Assembly: GCA_944336625.1 (NCBI GenBank)
Contig: CALVLF010000053.1
Coordinates: forward strand, 1 to 43,375
Length of the DNA stretch: 43,375 bases
Source: an uncultured Clostridia bacterium
Lineage (GTDB): Bacteria; Bacillota; Clostridia; Christensenellales; CAG-138
Direction of reading: 5' to 3'
Shown here: one piece after another, positions 4,117 to 11,437 of the stretch
Numbering within the stretch: position 1 is the first letter of the stretch
Layout of the letters: each line of letters starts with the position of its first letter
Notes under the pieces: generated by a model
What the model was told of the DNA's origin: nothing
The model's input: only the letters and a program-made list of their open reading frames with translations
Database searches by the model: none
Made by a program: the position numbers and the translations under genes

Positions 4117-4479
4117 ATGGAAGGGAATACAACCGAAGATGTACGCCGGCTGGAAAGGGAGTTCAAAGCCTGCCGGCGGATGCTCATGGTTCTGGGGGAT
4201 GAGACCCGGCAGCACCTTTTGTGCGTGATGCTGCAAGGGGATTGCGGCGGCAGCCGGATTATCGACCTTGCTACACAGACCAACCTTTCCCGGCCAGCGG
4301 TATCTCACCATATGCGGATCTTAAAGGAGGCGGGCATCGTCAAAAGCCGCAAGGAGAGCACCCGTGCCTATTATTATCTGGATCCGGCGGCGGAGGAGAT
4401 CGAGGGCTTCATCACCCTCTTTTGCCATATACGGGAGTTTATGAAAAAGGTTCCGGATCGAAGCGGCTGCGACGATTAG
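4117..4479 (+). CDS. ArsR-family winged-helix transcriptional regulator
   Basis: 120 residues. The winged-helix core runs from about residue 18 (RRMLMVLGDETRQHLLCVM) through the recognition helix in NLSRPAVSHHMRILKEAGIV (about residues 57-76) and the wing (KSRKESTRAYYYLDP). The metal-binding ELCVCDL box of classic ArsR/SmtB sensors is absent; that position reads IIDLATQTN, so the signal is probably not a metal bound at the alpha-3 site. The C-terminus carries two cysteines (FCHIREF, SGCDD). It is followed after 92 bp by a nitroreductase on the same strand, a likely partner and target. A GAGGGGG ribosome binding site precedes the ATG. Confidence 0.85.
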   Translation: MEGNTTEDVRRLEREFKACRRMLMVLGDETRQHLLCVMLQGDCGGSRIIDLATQTNLSRPAVSHHMRILKEAGIVKSRKESTRAYYYLDPAAEEIEGFITLFCHIREFMKKVPDRSGCDD

Positions 4480-4571: not shown

Positions 4572-5237
4572 ATGGATTTACAACAGGCGATGCAGGCACG
4601 GCATTCCGTCCGCTCCTATACGGAACAGCCCATCGAAGGAAAGCAGGCGGAGGATTTGCGCGCCTTTGTCGCCCAGTGCAACGAGGAAAGCGGCCTGCAT
4701 TTGCAGTTGGTTTTAAATGAGCCGAAGGCTTTCGATAGCTTTATGGCCAATTATGGCAAGTTTTCAGGCGTTGGGAACTATCTCGTCTTGGCAGGGAAAA
4801 GGGGGCCGGGGCTGGAGGAAGCTTGCGGCTACTATGGGGAAAAGGTCGCCCTCTATGCCCAGGCGCTGGGTCTGAATACCTGCTGGGTTGCCCTGACATA
4901 TAGCCGGGGTAAGGCAGTATTTGCTCTGGCGCCGGGGGAAAAACTATGCCTGGTTATAGCCCTGGGCTATGGAACGACCCAGGGCCTTCCCCGCAAATCC
5001 AAGCCGCGGGAAGCCGTGATGCGCTGCGAAACCACCCCGCCAGACTGGTTTATCCGGGGCGTTGAGGCGGCCCTGCTGGCCCCCACGGCCATGAACCAGC
5101 AGAAATTCATCTTTGCCCTCAGGGGGACGGCCGTAGAGGCAAAGGCGGGCACCGGCTTTTATACAAAGGTGGATTTAGGCATCGCCAAATATCATTTTGA
5201 GCTGGGGGCGGGCAGGAAAAACTTCCAATGGGCCTAG
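4572..5237 (+). CDS. Nitroreductase-family protein, TM1586-like
   Basis: 221 residues from the ATG at 4572, chosen because GGAGG lies 7 bp upstream and the protein then begins MDLQQAMQARHSVRSYTEQP, the usual nitroreductase N-terminus. The frame is open further upstream but only as an overlap with arsR. Family marks are RHSVRSY, the YYGEKVALYAQALGLNTCWV segment and the second half WFIRGVEAALLAPTAMNQQK. These match the TM1586 subgroup of FMN-dependent nitroreductases, in which two related halves form one FMN site. It probably reduces a small organic electrophile with NAD(P)H. It may be co-transcribed with arsR. It converges with another nitroreductase on the opposite strand after only 11 bp; the two are not close relatives. 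Confidence 0.85.
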   Translation: MDLQQAMQARHSVRSYTEQPIEGKQAEDLRAFVAQCNEESGLHLQLVLNEPKAFDSFMANYGKFSGVGNYLVLAGKRGPGLEEACGYYGEKVALYAQALGLNTCWVALTYSRGKAVFALAPGEKLCLVIALGYGTTQGLPRKSKPREAVMRCETTPPDWFIRGVEAALLAPTAMNQQKFIFALRGTAVEAKAGTGFYTKVDLGIAKYHFELGAGRKNFQWA

Positions 5238-5248
5238 GCCCGTTGCCA

Positions 5249-5836
5249 TCAAAACCGCAGAATCCGGCCCTCCTTCCGGGGCTTGGGCGTAGGATGGGCA
5301 TCTCCCTCCCGGGGATAACCCAGCAGAAGCTGCATCACAGCATAGTAATCCGGCCGGATGCCCCATTTTTGCAAAATTTCCTGGCCGTATGGATCGGCAA
5401 AAGCTGTCCAACCCTGGCCGATGTAGCAGGAGCCTATACCCAGGGCGTCCGCTGCCAGCATCATGTTTTCCGCAGCTACGGCGCAATCCTCCCCGGCGAA
5501 AAGGAAGTTTTTCGGGGCGAAAAGGGTGATGACCGTAGGCGCGCCGTAAAAGGCGTCGGTCAGCTTGGGGTCGTCGGCAATGCTGGGCTGCTCCCGGGAA
5601 ACATAGCTATCCCCGGAGGCCATGCGGGGCTTAGAATTTGCCCGCTTGATCCGCCCCAGGCGCAGGTTGACTTCCTTATCCTGGCATATGGCAAAAATGA
5701 CCCCCTGCCGGCCCCCGGCGCTGGGGGCATATAGCCCTGCTTGCAATATCTGCTCTAGGGCCGCCTCCTCCAGCTGCCGCGCCTGGAAGCGGCGGATAGC
5801 CCGCCGGTGCAAAATGACTTCCATAATATCTTTCAT
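5249..5836 (-). CDS. Nitroreductase-family flavoprotein of the ACGX cassette
   Basis: 195 residues, the normal length for a single-domain FMN nitroreductase. The N-terminus MEVILHRRAIRRF and the APSAGGRQ and NMMLAADALGIGSCYIGQG segments are FMN-binding landmarks of the family, and the end (LLLGYPREGDAHPTPKPRKE) is typical. The start codon lies one base after the stop of the radical SAM gene, and its GGAG ribosome binding site lies inside that gene, so the two are translationally coupled. The context suggests it acts with the radical SAM enzyme on the cysteine-rich peptide, for example by a flavin-dependent redox step. That role is inference; the sequence alone says only FMN oxidoreductase. 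Confidence 0.85.
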   Translation of the reverse strand: MKDIMEVILHRRAIRRFQARQLEEAALEQILQAGLYAPSAGGRQGVIFAICQDKEVNLRLGRIKRANSKPRMASGDSYVSREQPSIADDPKLTDAFYGAPTVITLFAPKNFLFAGEDCAVAAENMMLAADALGIGSCYIGQGWTAFADPYGQEILQKWGIRPDYYAVMQLLLGYPREGDAHPTPKPRKEGRILRF

Positions 5837-5837
5837 C

Positions 5838-6872
5838 TTAGCTTATCTCCTTCCAGCATTGCGGGTCCGGGGCGTAAAAATTTCCATCCTTGCCGCTGGC
5901 TACCGCTGGGCAACCCCGGCAATAGGGCAAAAGCTTGCACTTGGCGCACTTTTCAAATTTCCCGTAGTCCCTGTATTTTTCCATTTCGCACAACCAGATA
6001 TCTGCCAGCCTGTCCGCGAGAGCATTGCCTACCAGGCTGTTTTGCACCCGGCGGCAGGCGAAAACTTCCCCGGTGGGCAAGATGGTCATATGGCAGTTGC
6101 CGCAGTTGCAACCGCTGTATATCATCCCCGGCTGGGCATCCTGGGGGATTTTGAATATTCCCTTCTCGTATTCATATAGAGTCCAGAGGTGGTCCTTTTT
6201 GTTAAAATAGGTAGGGCAGCCTGCCGCCGCATATTCCTGGAATTTTTTATAGCAGGTATCCAACAGATCCCTATATTCCTCCGGGGAGATGCCCGTATCC
6301 TTTTCTTCGCTTGTGGGGCAGTACCGGGCAAAGGCGTAAACATCCGCCCCGGCAGCCACTACGGCGTCTATGATATCCGGCACTTCCCGAATATTTATAC
6401 CGGATACGGTGGTCATGATTACGGAGCGCAGCCCCGCCCGCTTAAGGCAGCCGATCTTCTCCAGGGTGCAGGCAAAGGAGCCGGGCTTGCGGAACCAGTC
6501 GTGGGTCTTTTCCATGCCATCCAGGGAAAGCTGGTACTTCTGGCAGCCCTGGGCTTTTAGCTGTCTGCACACCTTATCGTTCAGGTGAAAAGGATTTCCC
6601 AGTATGGCAAAGGGCGCGCCATGCTCCTTAAGGAGCGCCAGCAGCCGCCAGAAATCCGGGTGCAGAATGGGGTCCCCGCCAGTGATATAGAAATAGGGCA
6701 GCCGGGCATATACCTTGCAAAAGTCCAGGCAGTTATAAAAAACCTCCTGCATCTCGGGCCAGGGCATCCGCCCCGGCTTTTTATCGTTATCTTCGGAAAA
6801 TATATAGCAGTGCTTGCAGCGCTGGTCACACTCGTCGGTGATGTGCCACTGAAAGGCAAAATATTCTTGCAT
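5838..6872 (-). CDS. Radical SAM/SPASM protein of the ACGX peptide system
   Basis: 344 residues. The radical SAM 4Fe-4S motif CDQRCKHC lies at residues 15-22, followed by the GGDPILHP strand (about residues 65-72). The C-terminal SPASM region carries the auxiliary cluster cysteines: CNCGNC, FACRRV, then CAKCKLLPYCRGC and a final DPQCW. Length, architecture and the adjacent peptide match the radical SAM/SPASM family named ACGX system in TIGRFAMs. Such enzymes modify ribosomally made peptides, often by cross-linking a cysteine sulfur to a carbon of the peptide; the actual ACGX modification is not known to me. The gene lies 75 bp downstream of the peptide gene, has a GAGGAA ribosome binding site and is coupled to the nitroreductase. 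Confidence 0.9.
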   Translation of the reverse strand: MQEYFAFQWHITDECDQRCKHCYIFSEDNDKKPGRMPWPEMQEVFYNCLDFCKVYARLPYFYITGGDPILHPDFWRLLALLKEHGAPFAILGNPFHLNDKVCRQLKAQGCQKYQLSLDGMEKTHDWFRKPGSFACTLEKIGCLKRAGLRSVIMTTVSGINIREVPDIIDAVVAAGADVYAFARYCPTSEEKDTGISPEEYRDLLDTCYKKFQEYAAAGCPTYFNKKDHLWTLYEYEKGIFKIPQDAQPGMIYSGCNCGNCHMTILPTGEVFACRRVQNSLVGNALADRLADIWLCEMEKYRDYGKFEKCAKCKLLPYCRGCPAVASGKDGNFYAPDPQCWKEIS

Positions 6873-6947
6873 GGTGGTGTTCCTCGCTTCAGGATAAGCG
6901 GGGAGCCCCGGCCGGTGAGGACGGAACCCCCTTTTTTGCAGGCGGGC

Positions 6948-7124
6948 TTATTTATCCCCGGCGCCACATGCAGAGCCGCAGGCTGCGGGCTTTTCCTCCG
7001 GCTTGTCCCCAGCGCCGCATGCAGAGCCACAGGCCGTGGGCTTTTCCTCTGGCTTGTCCCCGGCGCCACAGGCCGTGCCGCAAGCAGCTGCCTTTTTCCA
7101 TCCAAATAAGTTTGCCAGTGCCAT
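6948..7124 (-). CDS. ACGX-repeat cysteine-rich peptide, putative RiPP precursor
   Basis: 58 residues starting MALANLFGWKKAA. The start at 7124 is chosen because GGAGGT (7133-7138) lies upstream; longer in-frame starts lack a ribosome binding site. After a 13-residue leader come three copies of a 17-residue unit: two ACGX tetrads plus the linker GDKPEEKP and one residue (14-30, 31-47), the last copy stopping after GDK (48-58). All six cysteines lie in ACGX tetrads at 15, 19, 32, 36, 49 and 53. The DNA shows the matching 51-bp repeat, a sign of unit duplication. The radical SAM and nitroreductase genes follow on the same strand. The leader is unusually short, and a double-glycine protease site is not evident. 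No exporter or protease gene lies nearby. Confidence 0.9.
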   Translation of the reverse strand: MALANLFGWKKAAACGTACGAGDKPEEKPTACGSACGAGDKPEEKPAACGSACGAGDK

Positions 7125-7150
7125 TTTTCTGTACCTCCGTCTGTATATTT

Positions 7151-7167
7151 GGAACGTTACCTGTTCC
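7151..7167. promoter_or_regulatory. Small inverted repeat in the leader of the ACGX cassette
   Basis: GGAAC (7151-7155) and GTTCC (7163-7167) form a 5-bp inverted repeat with a 7-bp centre just upstream of the peptide gene's ribosome binding site. The cassette promoter itself is not clear; TACAAT (minus strand, 7177-7182) is a possible -10 without a good -35. Confidence 0.3.
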
Positions 7168-7255
7168 TTGGCTATTATTGTACGGGGCAAGAGGCAGGGG
7201 AAAAAGTACGCACAATTCTATTACCTGGTCACCTTTTTATAACCGGGCCCAGCTG

Positions 7256-7284
7256 TTGAATATATTTGCATGTTAGATTATAAT
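7256..7284 (+). promoter_or_regulatory. Promoter of the HxlR-family gene
   Basis: TTGAAT (7256-7261), 17 bp and a perfect TATAAT (7279-7284). The -10 box lies inside the spacer of the inverted repeat at 7264-7302. Confidence 0.8.
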
Positions 7285-7302
7285 ATGATGTAACATGCAA
7301 AT
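7264..7302. promoter_or_regulatory. Operator-like 12-bp inverted repeat around the hxlR -10 box
   Basis: ATTTGCATGTTA (7264-7275) and TAACATGCAAAT (7291-7302) are perfect reverse complements separated by 15 bp. One arm fills the -35/-10 spacer and the other covers the expected transcription start. A dimeric winged-helix protein bound here would block the promoter, so HxlR autorepression is the simplest reading. Confidence 0.75.
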
Positions 7303-7341: not shown

Positions 7342-7665
7342 ATGATTACGAAAGAAGAATTGCCCGAATGCCCCGTGGCCACTACCGTGCAGCTCATCGG
7401 CAGCAAGTGGAAGCTACTGATCTTGCGCAATCTTTTTCAGCGGCCCTGGCGCTTCAACGAGCTGAAAAAATCTTTAGAGGGTATCAGCCAGAAAGTGCTT
7501 ACGGACAGCCTTCGTTCCCTGGAGGCAGATGGTATCATCTCCCGCACGGTATACCCGGAGGTACCCCTGCGGGTGGAATATGCGCTTACGGACTTGGGGC
7601 AGTCCATGCGGCCCATTATCCAGGCGATGGAGGACTGGGGAATAAGCTATAAAATGCGGCTTTGA
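7342..7665 (+). CDS. HxlR-family (DUF24) winged-helix regulator
   Basis: 107 residues. Family hallmarks: the N-terminal CPVATTVQLIGSKWKLLIL segment with conserved Cys10, RPWRFNELKKSLEGISQKVLTDSLRSLEADGII as the helix-turn-helix region (residues about 33-65), and the wing RTVYPEVPLRVEYALTD. HxlR proteins are dimeric one-component regulators; several sense aldehydes, quinones or oxidants through the N-terminal cysteine. The gene is divergent from the ACGX cassette with about 217 bp between starts, and its promoter contains the perfect inverted repeat. It therefore probably regulates itself and perhaps the cassette. An AAAGGAAAGGA ribosome binding site precedes the ATG. Confidence 0.9.
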   Translation: MITKEELPECPVATTVQLIGSKWKLLILRNLFQRPWRFNELKKSLEGISQKVLTDSLRSLEADGIISRTVYPEVPLRVEYALTDLGQSMRPIIQAMEDWGISYKMRL

Positions 7666-9227: not shown

Positions 9228-9519
9228 TATTTTTTGGGTTTGGAAGCCGGAGCCGCGTAGGCTTGTATTCCCATTCGGTGGCATATGCGGCGGAAAATCT
9301 ATCAGGTCCGGCGGAAAATGCGTAAAAGCGGTCTATAGGCAGCTTTTATAGCGCTGCTCTTTATCCTGGTTTAGCGCATTTCAATTCATTACCGATAAGC
9401 GTGATGTATAGCAGATGAATGAAGGGCTGCATAGAACGAAACAAGGCGGGCAGGCCTGATACGAGCCCTTACATTGGCGCCTGCAAGGCCGCTCTTATCC
9501 AGAGGATCTATGTTAGGCC
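9228..9519. other. Gene-free stretch between convergent glmM and glycyl-tRNA synthetase
   Basis: No convincing gene. The only open frame of note (62 codons, minus strand, 9389-9577) runs into the glycyl-tRNA synthetase terminator and has no recognisable protein. The stretch contains an 11-bp direct repeat CGGCGGAAAAT at 9288-9298 and 9309-9319, with a 21-bp period. Confidence 0.5.
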
Positions 9520-9555
9520 AAAAAAAGAAACGGCATGGCAATTCATTGCCATGCC
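9520..9555 (-). terminator. Intrinsic terminator of glycyl-tRNA synthetase
   Basis: GGCATGGCAAT (9532-9542) and ATTGCCATGCC (9545-9555) form a perfect stem. On the minus strand it is followed by TTTCTTTTTTT. Confidence 0.9.
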
Positions 9556-9592
9556 ATAAAACATAACTTGGCTCCAAAGCCGAATCAGTTGA

Positions 9593-10981
9593 TTAAAAAT
9601 CCGTCGCTGCCAGGATATAGCTTTCCAGCTCAGAAATGGGCAGGCGGATCTGGTTCATGGTATCCCGATCCCGAACGGTGACAGTATCATCCTCCAGGGT
9701 ATCGAAGTCAATGGTAATGCACAGCGGCGTGCCGATCTCATCCTCCCGGCGGTAGCGCTTGCCGATCTGCCCCGCGTCGTCGTAGTCCACCATGAAGTGC
9801 CGAGCCAGCATGGCGTGAACCTCCTTGGCCTTATCGCCCAGCTTATTCTTCTGCAGGGGCAGTACGGCAGCTTTATAGGGGGCCAGAGCCGGATGGAGAT
9901 GCAGTACGTTGCGGATATCGCCATTCTCCAGGGTTTCTTCATCGTAGGCATCGCAGAGGAATGCCAGGGCAACCCGGTCTGCGCCCAGGGAGGGCTCTAC
10001 GCAGTAAGGGATATAGCGCGTATTGGTAAAGGGATCCAGATAATCCATGGAAGCGCCGCTGTGATTGGCATGGGCCTTCAGGTCAAAATCCGTCCGGCTT
10101 GCAATGCCCCAAAGCTCACCCCAGCCAAAGGGGAAGAGGAATTCAATATCCGTGGTGCCATTGCTGTAATGGGAAAGCTCCGCCTTATCATGCTCCCGCA
10201 TGCGCATATGCTCCGGCGTCATGCCTAGGGAAAGGAGCCAGTTTTTGCAGAAATCCTTCCAATAAGTGTACCATTCCATTTCAGTGCCTGGGGCGCAGAA
10301 GAACTCCAATTCCATCTGCTCGAATTCCCGCGTGCGGAAGGTGAAATTGCCAGGCGTGATTTCATTGCGGAAGGATTTGCCGATCTGGGCAATGCCGAAG
10401 GGAATCTTCCTGCGGGTAGTCCGCTGCACATTGCGGAAGTTTACGAAAATGCCCTGGGCAGTTTCCGGCCGGAGGTAGATCTGGCTGGCCGTGTCCTCGT
10501 TGACACCCTGAAAAGTTTTAAACATCATGTTGAATTTACGGATGCCCGTAAAGTCACTTTTACCGCATTCCGGGCAGGTAATGCCCTGATCTTTGATATA
10601 TTCCGCCATCTGTTCATGGCTCCAGCCATCGGGATGGACATCCAGGCCATGTTCCTTTGCATAGTCTTCGATGAGCTTATCGGCCCGGAAACGGGCTTTG
10701 CAGCTCTTGCAGTCCATAAGCGGGTCGTTGAAGTTCACCACATGGCCAGAGGCGACCCAGGTTTCCGGATTCATGAGAATAGCGGCATCCATGCCTACGT
10801 TATAGGGGCTTTCCTGTACGAATTTCCGCCACCAAGCTTTTTTGACGTTGTTTTTGAATTCTACGCCAAGAGGGCCATAGTCCCAGGTGTTCGCAAGACC
10901 GCCGTAGATCTCAGAACCAGCAAAAATAAATCCACGGTTTTTGCAGAGTGCAACGATCTTATCCATGCTAAAATTTGCCAT
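9593..10981 (-). CDS. glyQS: Glycyl-tRNA synthetase, dimeric type
   Basis: 462 residues starting [18 protein letters not shown]. The start at 10981 is chosen for its AAGGAG ribosome binding site and because the promoter at 11030-11058 lies downstream of the longer in-frame extension. This is the single-chain alpha-2 class II enzyme (eukaryote-like), not the separate GlyQ/GlyS type. Class II motifs are visible: motif 1/2 region with [20 protein letters not shown], then [20 protein letters not shown] and [14 protein letters not shown]. Motif 3 is [18 protein letters not shown] zinc-type cysteine set (CKSC and CPECGKSD) lies in the insertion near residues 94-145. The C-terminal anticodon-binding domain follows ([10 protein letters not shown]). 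I saw no T-box leader; the 5' leader is only about 45 bases. Confidence 0.96.
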
Positions 10982-11185: not shown

Positions 11186-11437
11186 ATGTGGAATTGCGGT
11201 AATGGTTGTGGAAACAGCTGTTGGTGGATTATCATCCTGCTGCTGCTCATCTGCGGCTGCGATAATAGCTGCTGCGATAATGGCTGCGGCAATGGCTGCG
11301 GCTGTGGCAATGGCTGCGGCAATAGCTGTTGGTGGATCATCATCCTGTTGCTCCTCTTCGGATGCGGAAACGGTTGCTGCGACAATGGCTGCAACTGTGG
11401 CTGCAGCAATACCAACAATTGCGGCTGCGGCTGCTAA
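11186..11437 (+). CDS. Cysteine-rich mini-protein with internal duplication
   Basis: 83 residues with 21 cysteines and many Gly and Asn. Two copies of an 18-residue unit (CGNGCGNSC, then WWIIILLLL) are identical at residues 4-21 and 40-57, a period of 36 residues or 108 bp. Each hydrophobic WWIIILLLL run is too short for an ordinary transmembrane helix but could bury in a membrane or self-assemble; the Cys-rich linkers could bind metal or cross-link. It resembles small proteins that NCBI labels chorion class high-cysteine HCB in Clostridia; that label is descriptive and no function is known to me. An AAGGAGG ribosome binding site precedes the ATG. The gene stands alone between glyQS (divergent) and the GIY-YIG gene (convergent). 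Confidence 0.85.

Follow-up and report, generated by a model that had tools for sequence, protein, structure and literature searches.

An ACGX-peptide/radical SAM cassette of gut Clostridia in a probable redox regulon shared with class M sirtuin and zinc-macrodomain genes

A 43,375-nucleotide stretch from an uncultured Clostridia bacterium (contig CALVLF010000053.1; hereafter, the window) carries at positions 5249-7302 a compact cassette encoding a cysteine-repeat peptide, a radical S-adenosylmethionine (SAM) enzyme and a nitroreductase, with an HxlR-type regulator gene running divergently. On balance, we read this cassette as an operon of a thiol/electrophile-stress regulon, in which a cytosolic, radical SAM-modified thiol peptide takes a role like that of the lipoyl-bearing carrier GcvH-L. 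The peptide of this gut bacterium would probably be a redox buffer that is turned on by chemical stress. Four kinds of observation underlie this reading: gene content, conservation, promoter sharing and co-occurrence. The peptide/radical SAM pair itself is the ordinary part, as it is a named family (the NCBIfam pair TIGR04341/TIGR04340) of which the window holds a minimal member. The surprising part is that this ACGX system sits in a DUF24-type redox regulon common to the class M sirtuin (SirTM) and the zinc (Zn)-macrodomain. Our literature search found no publication on the TIGR04341/TIGR04340 family or on the promoter box described below, and no earlier description of the shared box, the oxidoreductase slot, the regulator and the SirTM link, which we take as new; together they give a first functional frame for the family.

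The three cassette genes lie on the reverse strand. The ACGX-repeat peptide (6948-7124; 58 aa), with the sequence MALANLFGWKKAAACGTACGAGDKPEEKPTACGSACGAGDKPEEKPAACGSACGAGDK, carries six ACGX tetrads and scores 67 bits against TIGR04341 (cut-off 28). At a spacing of 75 bp, it is adjoined by the radical SAM/SPASM maturase (5838-6872; 344 aa), which scores 593 bits against TIGR04340 (cut-off 400), matches the radical SAM and SPASM Pfam domains and has its cluster motif CxxxCxxC at residues 15/19/22. A single base (5837) separates the stop of this gene from the flavin mononucleotide (FMN) nitroreductase-family oxidoreductase on the same strand (5249-5836; 195 aa; PF00881, 82 bits). Both family models are far above their curated cut-offs, the gene order is the same as in the NCBIfam ACGX system, and the peptide/radical SAM pair shows no differences from it. 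An earlier note, made from the sequence alone, had described this cassette with its divergent HxlR gene, recognized ACGX as a known family, counted a 13-residue leader before the first ACG and remarked on the one-base gap; gene coordinates and family matches bear out each of these points. Its six tetrads also stand, but its three 17-residue repeats are two full repeats and a truncated third. The promoter box, the connection with SirTM and the Zn-macrodomain, and the kinship of the maturase with the thiooxazole synthase SbtM, which is likewise new here, had escaped it.

A single scan of GTDB genomes recovered 80 related loci, mostly from Lachnospiraceae and other gut and rumen clostridia, with some from Bacilli and Treponema, and in most of them peptide homologues lie beside the radical SAM gene. 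Cultivable carriers are among them, namely Blautia and Massiliimalia isolates (L040 and L104). Among the 74 loci examined in which the peptide is readable (window included), the usual leader is MALxNLxGW and each peptide has 2-10 cysteines, of which 429/434 are followed by glycine and 410/434 are preceded by alanine. Because some peptides, such as those of loci L061 and L110, carry only isolated ACGX units without a CX3C pair, the single ACG is the conserved unit. The family scores, the 80 homologous loci and the conserved cysteine context together show that the cassette is not a chance assembly. At one locus (L037, 4753-4965), the peptide frame ends in an unrelated, frameshift-like tail after three ACG units; the genome in question (G463) is one of two in the window's group without a detected SirTM.

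The evidence for a regulon comes from a promoter box. In the window, GTGCGTACTT occurs once (7204-7213, reverse strand; 0.02 copies expected), upstream of the peptide gene, where it is a probable regulator site. This box, or the looser GTGC[GCA]TACTT, is found in one orientation in 39/44 intergenic regions between HxlR and peptide genes, and 1.2 Mb of loci contain 64 exact copies where base counts predict approximately 2; nearly all of these copies are at an ACGX promoter. At 60/63 unique sites, a TATAAT-like -10 element follows 20-22 nt past the box; in the window, this hexamer is TACAAT (7177-7182, reverse strand), 21 nt after the box and ahead of a ribosome-binding site, GGAGG, that we read from the sequence (7134-7138, reverse strand). 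Upstream of the box lies AT-rich sequence with GGTNAC-like repeats approximately 10 bp apart; a longer composite promoter pattern was too strict and gave no match. Since the box ends shortly before the -35 position, where no good -35 element is seen, activation seems the likelier mode at these promoters.

The genome of the window contains five copies of the box. Two fall within reading frames and seem to be there by chance, and the other three are in promoters with a common 13-mer, ATTGTGCGTACTT. The first of these promoters belongs to the window's ACGX operon. The second, on contig C22, precedes an operon of a PNPOx-ferredoxin flavoprotein, a Zn-macrodomain protein and SirTM, from which another HxlR gene diverges, while the third, on contig C124, precedes an NAD(P)H-binding oxidoreductase gene. 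Across the 15 genomes of the window's radical SAM group, boxes with the full layout precede ACGX operons as well as SirTM, PNPOx-ferredoxin, NAD(P)H-binding, FMN reductase and flavin reductase genes. That the box-bearing promoters form a redox regulon is thus well supported, and the box can serve as a promoter signature for mapping it.

The regulator gene of the window (7342-7665, forward strand; 107 aa) begins just past position 7302, where the stretch covered by the earlier note ends. Its product matches PF01638 at 114 bits and the RrpB and RrpA models at 114 and 87 bits, which is under their cut-offs, and is a MarR/DUF24-type protein close to HypR and YodB (structures 4a5m and 5hs7). Its single cysteine, Cys10, aligns with Cys14 of HypR and is present in 50/54 homologues, together with Val12. 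In DUF24 regulators, an N-terminal cysteine senses hypochlorous acid, quinones and diamide, and the genes that they control encode nitroreductases and flavin reductases (PMC6943732). By analogy, Cys10 would let the window's HxlR sense electrophiles or disulfide stress, and the regulator would control the GTGCGTACTT promoters. The HypR/YodB/CatR regulons of B. subtilis share with our system an HxlR-fold regulator, an N-terminal sensing cysteine and nitroreductase or flavin reductase targets (PMC6943732), whereas control here apparently extends to a modified peptide and a module for ADP-ribosylation. A formaldehyde-type HxlR is ruled out, as that mechanism requires a lysine two residues after the cysteine (the Cys11/Lys13 type; PMC7835342), the position occupied here by Val12.

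In the 67 loci with enough upstream sequence, a divergent HxlR gene is found within 1.1 kb upstream in 44, most of the products being 75-90% identical to that of the window; as the regulator gene nearby, HxlR is counted in 50/67 and LysR in 7/67. With a divergent HxlR in 44/67 loci and a nitroreductase in 38/80, neither gene is a random neighbor, a possibility that the earlier note had put up against its own reading. Loci L067, L068, L070 and L081-L083 have a LysR-type regulator upstream instead of HxlR and are without the GTGCGTACTT box. In four Bacilli loci (L090-L093), HxlR is only approximately 48% identical and the box has the form GTGCCTACTT; aspartate replaces the sensing cysteine in four of the HxlRs compared, which probably come from these same loci. 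The HxlR gene of the window has a promoter-like TTGAAT-17-TATAAT of its own (7256-7284, forward strand), which is a consensus match only. Over it lies a perfect 12-bp inverted repeat, ATTTGCATGTTA-15-TAACATGCAAAT (7264-7302), which is present in the window only among the loci compared and is for that reason ruled out as the regulator site.

The link to SirTM goes beyond the shared box. The genome's own sirtuin, encoded outside the window on contig C22, is missed by NCBIfam and marginal in Pfam, and it matches the S. pyogenes SirTM structure 5a3a at 5e-74, with QG replacing the catalytic HG (...TQGDYGLWQC). The macrodomain gene directly upstream of it matches the Zn-macrodomain structure 8rsi at 9e-88, with the Cys and His residues of the zinc loop aligned, and also 5kiv. 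In the 67-locus set, SirTM lies within 5.5 kb of ACGX in 30 loci, its presence changing at least 11 times along the tree, and a Zn-macrodomain lies within that distance in 13. In the window's clade, SirTM is encoded elsewhere in the genome in 13/15 genomes. Five of 18 such unlinked SirTMs, including that of the window's genome, have a box no more than 2 kb upstream of them, compared to 0.02 expected. In an even set of 398 Bacillota genomes, SirTM is present in 7/9 genomes with ACGX and 12/389 others (Fisher p 6e-9, or 9e-8 without the window's own genome, a significance that is inflated by genome relatedness). On a SirTM tree, those of ACGX genomes are clustered, yet they do not form a single clade.

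Several observations weigh against the explanation as a whole. Within 5.5 kb, SirTM is missing from every locus of the window's clade, and the link is one-way, as 12 of the 398 genomes have SirTM without ACGX. ACGX genomes without a detected SirTM number 2/9 in the Bacillota sample and 2/15 in the window's clade. In one small family of 13 genomes, a SirTM-like gene is present in 12 and ACGX in 2, and part of the co-occurrence may simply reflect lineage; a family-matched control was limited to these 13 genomes, nearly all SirTM-like positive, and did not separate lineage from function. Neither HxlR nor LysR is nearby in 10/67 loci, and we infer binding of HxlR to the box from the position of the box only. 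Lastly, a simple rule was used to call open reading frames (ORFs), and most of the loci come from metagenome assemblies. A rival explanation, which we put only a little short of an even chance, is that SirTM and ACGX are merely co-regulated in one redox regulon, with another protein as the SirTM target; it concerns ADP-ribosylation alone and is compatible with the rest of the proposed mechanism. In its favor, unrelated flavin oxidoreductases are among the genes that the box drives, and SirTM occurs without ACGX; against it, SirTM recurs as a partner inside the operon in 30/67 loci and was separately gained or lost many times.

In S. pyogenes and S. aureus, the SirTM operon, for which there is a link to oxidative stress, comprises SirTM, the Zn-macrodomain, the lipoyl carrier GcvH-L, the ligase LplA2 and two oxidoreductases; lipoylation of GcvH-L comes before its ADP-ribosylation, and GcvH-L is the sole known SirTM target, other targets of SirTM/Zn-macrodomain pairs being unknown according to Rack et al. 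(2015, PMC4518038; 2024, PMC11490716). Like these extended operons, the system described here combines SirTM, a Zn-macrodomain, oxidoreductases, a sulfur-bearing carrier and the enzyme that equips it in a setting of redox stress. The differences lie in the parts: a radical SAM-modified Cys-repeat peptide here versus GcvH-L lipoylated by LplA2 there, and a nitroreductase, quinone oxidoreductase or PNPOx-ferredoxin protein here versus an old yellow enzyme (OYE) and a luciferase-like monooxygenase (LLM) there. In the window's genome, moreover, the parts are split over two operons. By this comparison, the window's system may work like the SirTM carrier module, though it is not of the GcvH-L operon type.

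A GCV_H match was not found near SirTM in any of 20 genomes. In the window's genome, the sole GcvH match is partial, scores 23 bits and lies on another contig; neither this genome nor genomes G127, G280, G397 and G292 gave a strong match. Because GcvH is absent near SirTM and strong matches are lacking in several genomes with both SirTM and ACGX, SirTM in genomes without a strong GcvH probably has another target. Among the ORFs next to the window genome's SirTM, we noticed no LplA2, though no search aimed at LplA was made. In our proposal, ADP-ribosylation by SirTM and its reversal by the Zn-macrodomain would gate the system, whether the two genes share the ACGX operon or, as in the window's genome, belong to another operon behind a further copy of the box, and the parallel with lipoyl-GcvH-L makes the peptide the likeliest target. 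In its fullest form, which we put forward tentatively and consider rather unlikely as a whole, the radical SAM-modified ACGX peptide would be the missing substrate of SirTM/Zn-macrodomain pairs without GcvH-L: a reversibly ADP-ribosylated redox carrier of the ribosomally synthesized and post-translationally modified peptide (RiPP) class, the counterpart in anaerobes of lipoyl-GcvH-L, possibly with a thiooxazole on every ACG. The peptide is a small, concrete and testable candidate for a SirTM target in systems beyond GcvH-L.

As for the modification itself, the closest named radical SAM/SPASM family is SbtM (TIGR04082), the thio(seleno)oxazole synthase, which targets a cysteine of a ribosomal peptide. 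After TIGR04340, the radical SAM enzyme of the window scores highest against SbtM (165 bits), followed by AhbD (122 bits) and the sactipeptide/ranthipeptide models, including PapB-type (50-57 bits). In 299 Bacillota genomes, the SbtM model found five proteins at E<1e-45, all of them ACGX radical SAM enzymes; a true SbtM over the cut-off, which we sought for a tree, was not found in these genomes. An AlphaFold2 model (predicted local distance difference test score, 86.9) is closest to SuiB, SkfB and the Cys-oxidizing sulfatase maturase anSME. SbtM takes four hydrogens off a Cys-containing peptide to give a thiooxazole (PMC11002830, citing Lewis et al. 2021). Given that this nearest named relative makes a thiooxazole, the enzyme would modify the cysteine of each ACG most likely by four-electron oxidation to a 5-thiooxazole, with some cysteines perhaps left as CX3C dithiols. 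We regard thiooxazole formation as the likeliest chemistry, while holding it at somewhat less than even confidence. Counting against it, the enzyme reaches 164.7 bits where SbtM requires 350, and it aligns with the SbtM model only from position 197 on, the first approximately 195 residues being absent. The enzyme is not filed as SbtM because it fails this cut-off, and no selenocysteine precursor is known here. It may instead represent a second family of radical SAM enzymes that make thiooxazoles, one found in bacteria of the gut and rumen. A related radical SAM enzyme at locus L172 (8029-9417; 241 bits to TIGR04340, under the cut-off), which lies beside a second radical SAM enzyme and a Cys-rich 91-aa peptide (9451-9726), belongs to a different peptide-radical SAM system.

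Two other products come into consideration. One is a set of thioether cross-links, as in sactipeptides and ranthipeptides, in an antimicrobial or signaling peptide; the core is Cys-rich, and the enzyme has a SPASM domain with the RiPP maturases SuiB and SkfB as its closest solved structures. We find this quite improbable: the acceptor residue is not fixed across the peptides, many of which lack CX3D, the PapB-type and sactipeptide maturase models score approximately 50-57 bits versus 165 for SbtM, and no exporter, protease or immunity gene recurs. The other is a metallophore or metal buffer whose thiooxazoles or thiolates bind copper or another soft metal, with the oxidoreductases as general stress bystanders. 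This role, to which SbtM kinship lends plausible chemistry, would be like that of bufferins/captophorins (PMC12668002), with which ACGX peptides share repeated x-Cys-Gly units and a stress setting. The units resemble the repeated Lys-Cys of thiooxazole peptides made by multinuclear non-heme iron-dependent oxidative enzymes (MNIOs), which bind copper and are tied to metal and oxidative stress. Bufferins/captophorins, for which copper binding has been proposed, are however MNIO-made, whereas the ACGX maturase is a radical SAM enzyme, and no MNIO was noticed among recurrent ACGX neighbors. A metal role is in our view unlikely, as neither metal transporters nor metal sensors are among the recurrent neighbors, the regulator is a DUF24-type thiol switch, and the co-regulated genes encode flavin or NAD(P)H oxidoreductases and SirTM. 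The earlier suggestion of a redox or metal-handling peptide fits in its redox part, while neither regulator type nor neighbors favor the metal part.

Over the 80 loci, the slot directly behind the radical SAM gene holds a nitroreductase in 38, a zinc-type quinone oxidoreductase in 26, a PNPOx-ferredoxin flavoprotein in 4 and other genes in 12. The quinone oxidoreductase is PIG3-like and of a different fold from the nitroreductase, and the PNPOx-like flavoprotein carries two 4Fe-4S motifs. The earlier note had taken the one-base gap as a sign of a two-enzyme maturation, for example with radical SAM modification followed by flavin-dependent dehydrogenation. Although the shared strand and the nitroreductase in 38/80 loci agree with this idea, the slot is given to quinone oxidoreductase in 26/80 and PNPOx flavoprotein in 4/80, the first two kinds switch at least 10 times on a tree of 72 radical SAM enzymes, and peptides and radical SAM enzymes look alike in nitroreductase and quinone-oxidoreductase loci. 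Such swapping rules out the nitroreductase as an obligate maturase and makes joint maturation by both enzymes a poor prospect. Since different oxidoreductases interchange behind the radical SAM gene, an interchangeable detoxifying or electron-transfer oxidoreductase better explains the slot than a second maturase. In the redox reading that we favor, the product would be a cytosolic thiol carrier or scavenger with the adjoining flavin/NAD(P)H oxidoreductase as its partner, namely the nitroreductase here and the quinone oxidoreductase or PNPOx-ferredoxin protein elsewhere.

Among ACGX neighbors, no dedicated transporter, protease/peptidase or immunity gene is recurrent. Of the transporter genes that do recur, the most prominent encodes an ABC ATPase; it is found in 13 loci and on both strands, which by our estimate is about what the general abundance of such genes would give. 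Because no exporter or peptidase recurs, the peptide, once made, would be retained in the cytosol; the earlier note had seen no transporter nearby, and its proposal that the product stays in the cell is plausible.

Convergent with the cassette nitroreductase, the window also encodes an ArsR-type regulator (4117-4479, forward strand) followed by a TM1586-type nitroreductase (4572-5237, forward strand), a pair that is not a regular neighbor in other ACGX loci. Further along, an 83-aa ORF (11186-11437, forward strand), which has no significant family match in NCBIfam or Pfam, is extremely rich in Cys, Gly and Asn and contains two WWIIILLLL stretches.

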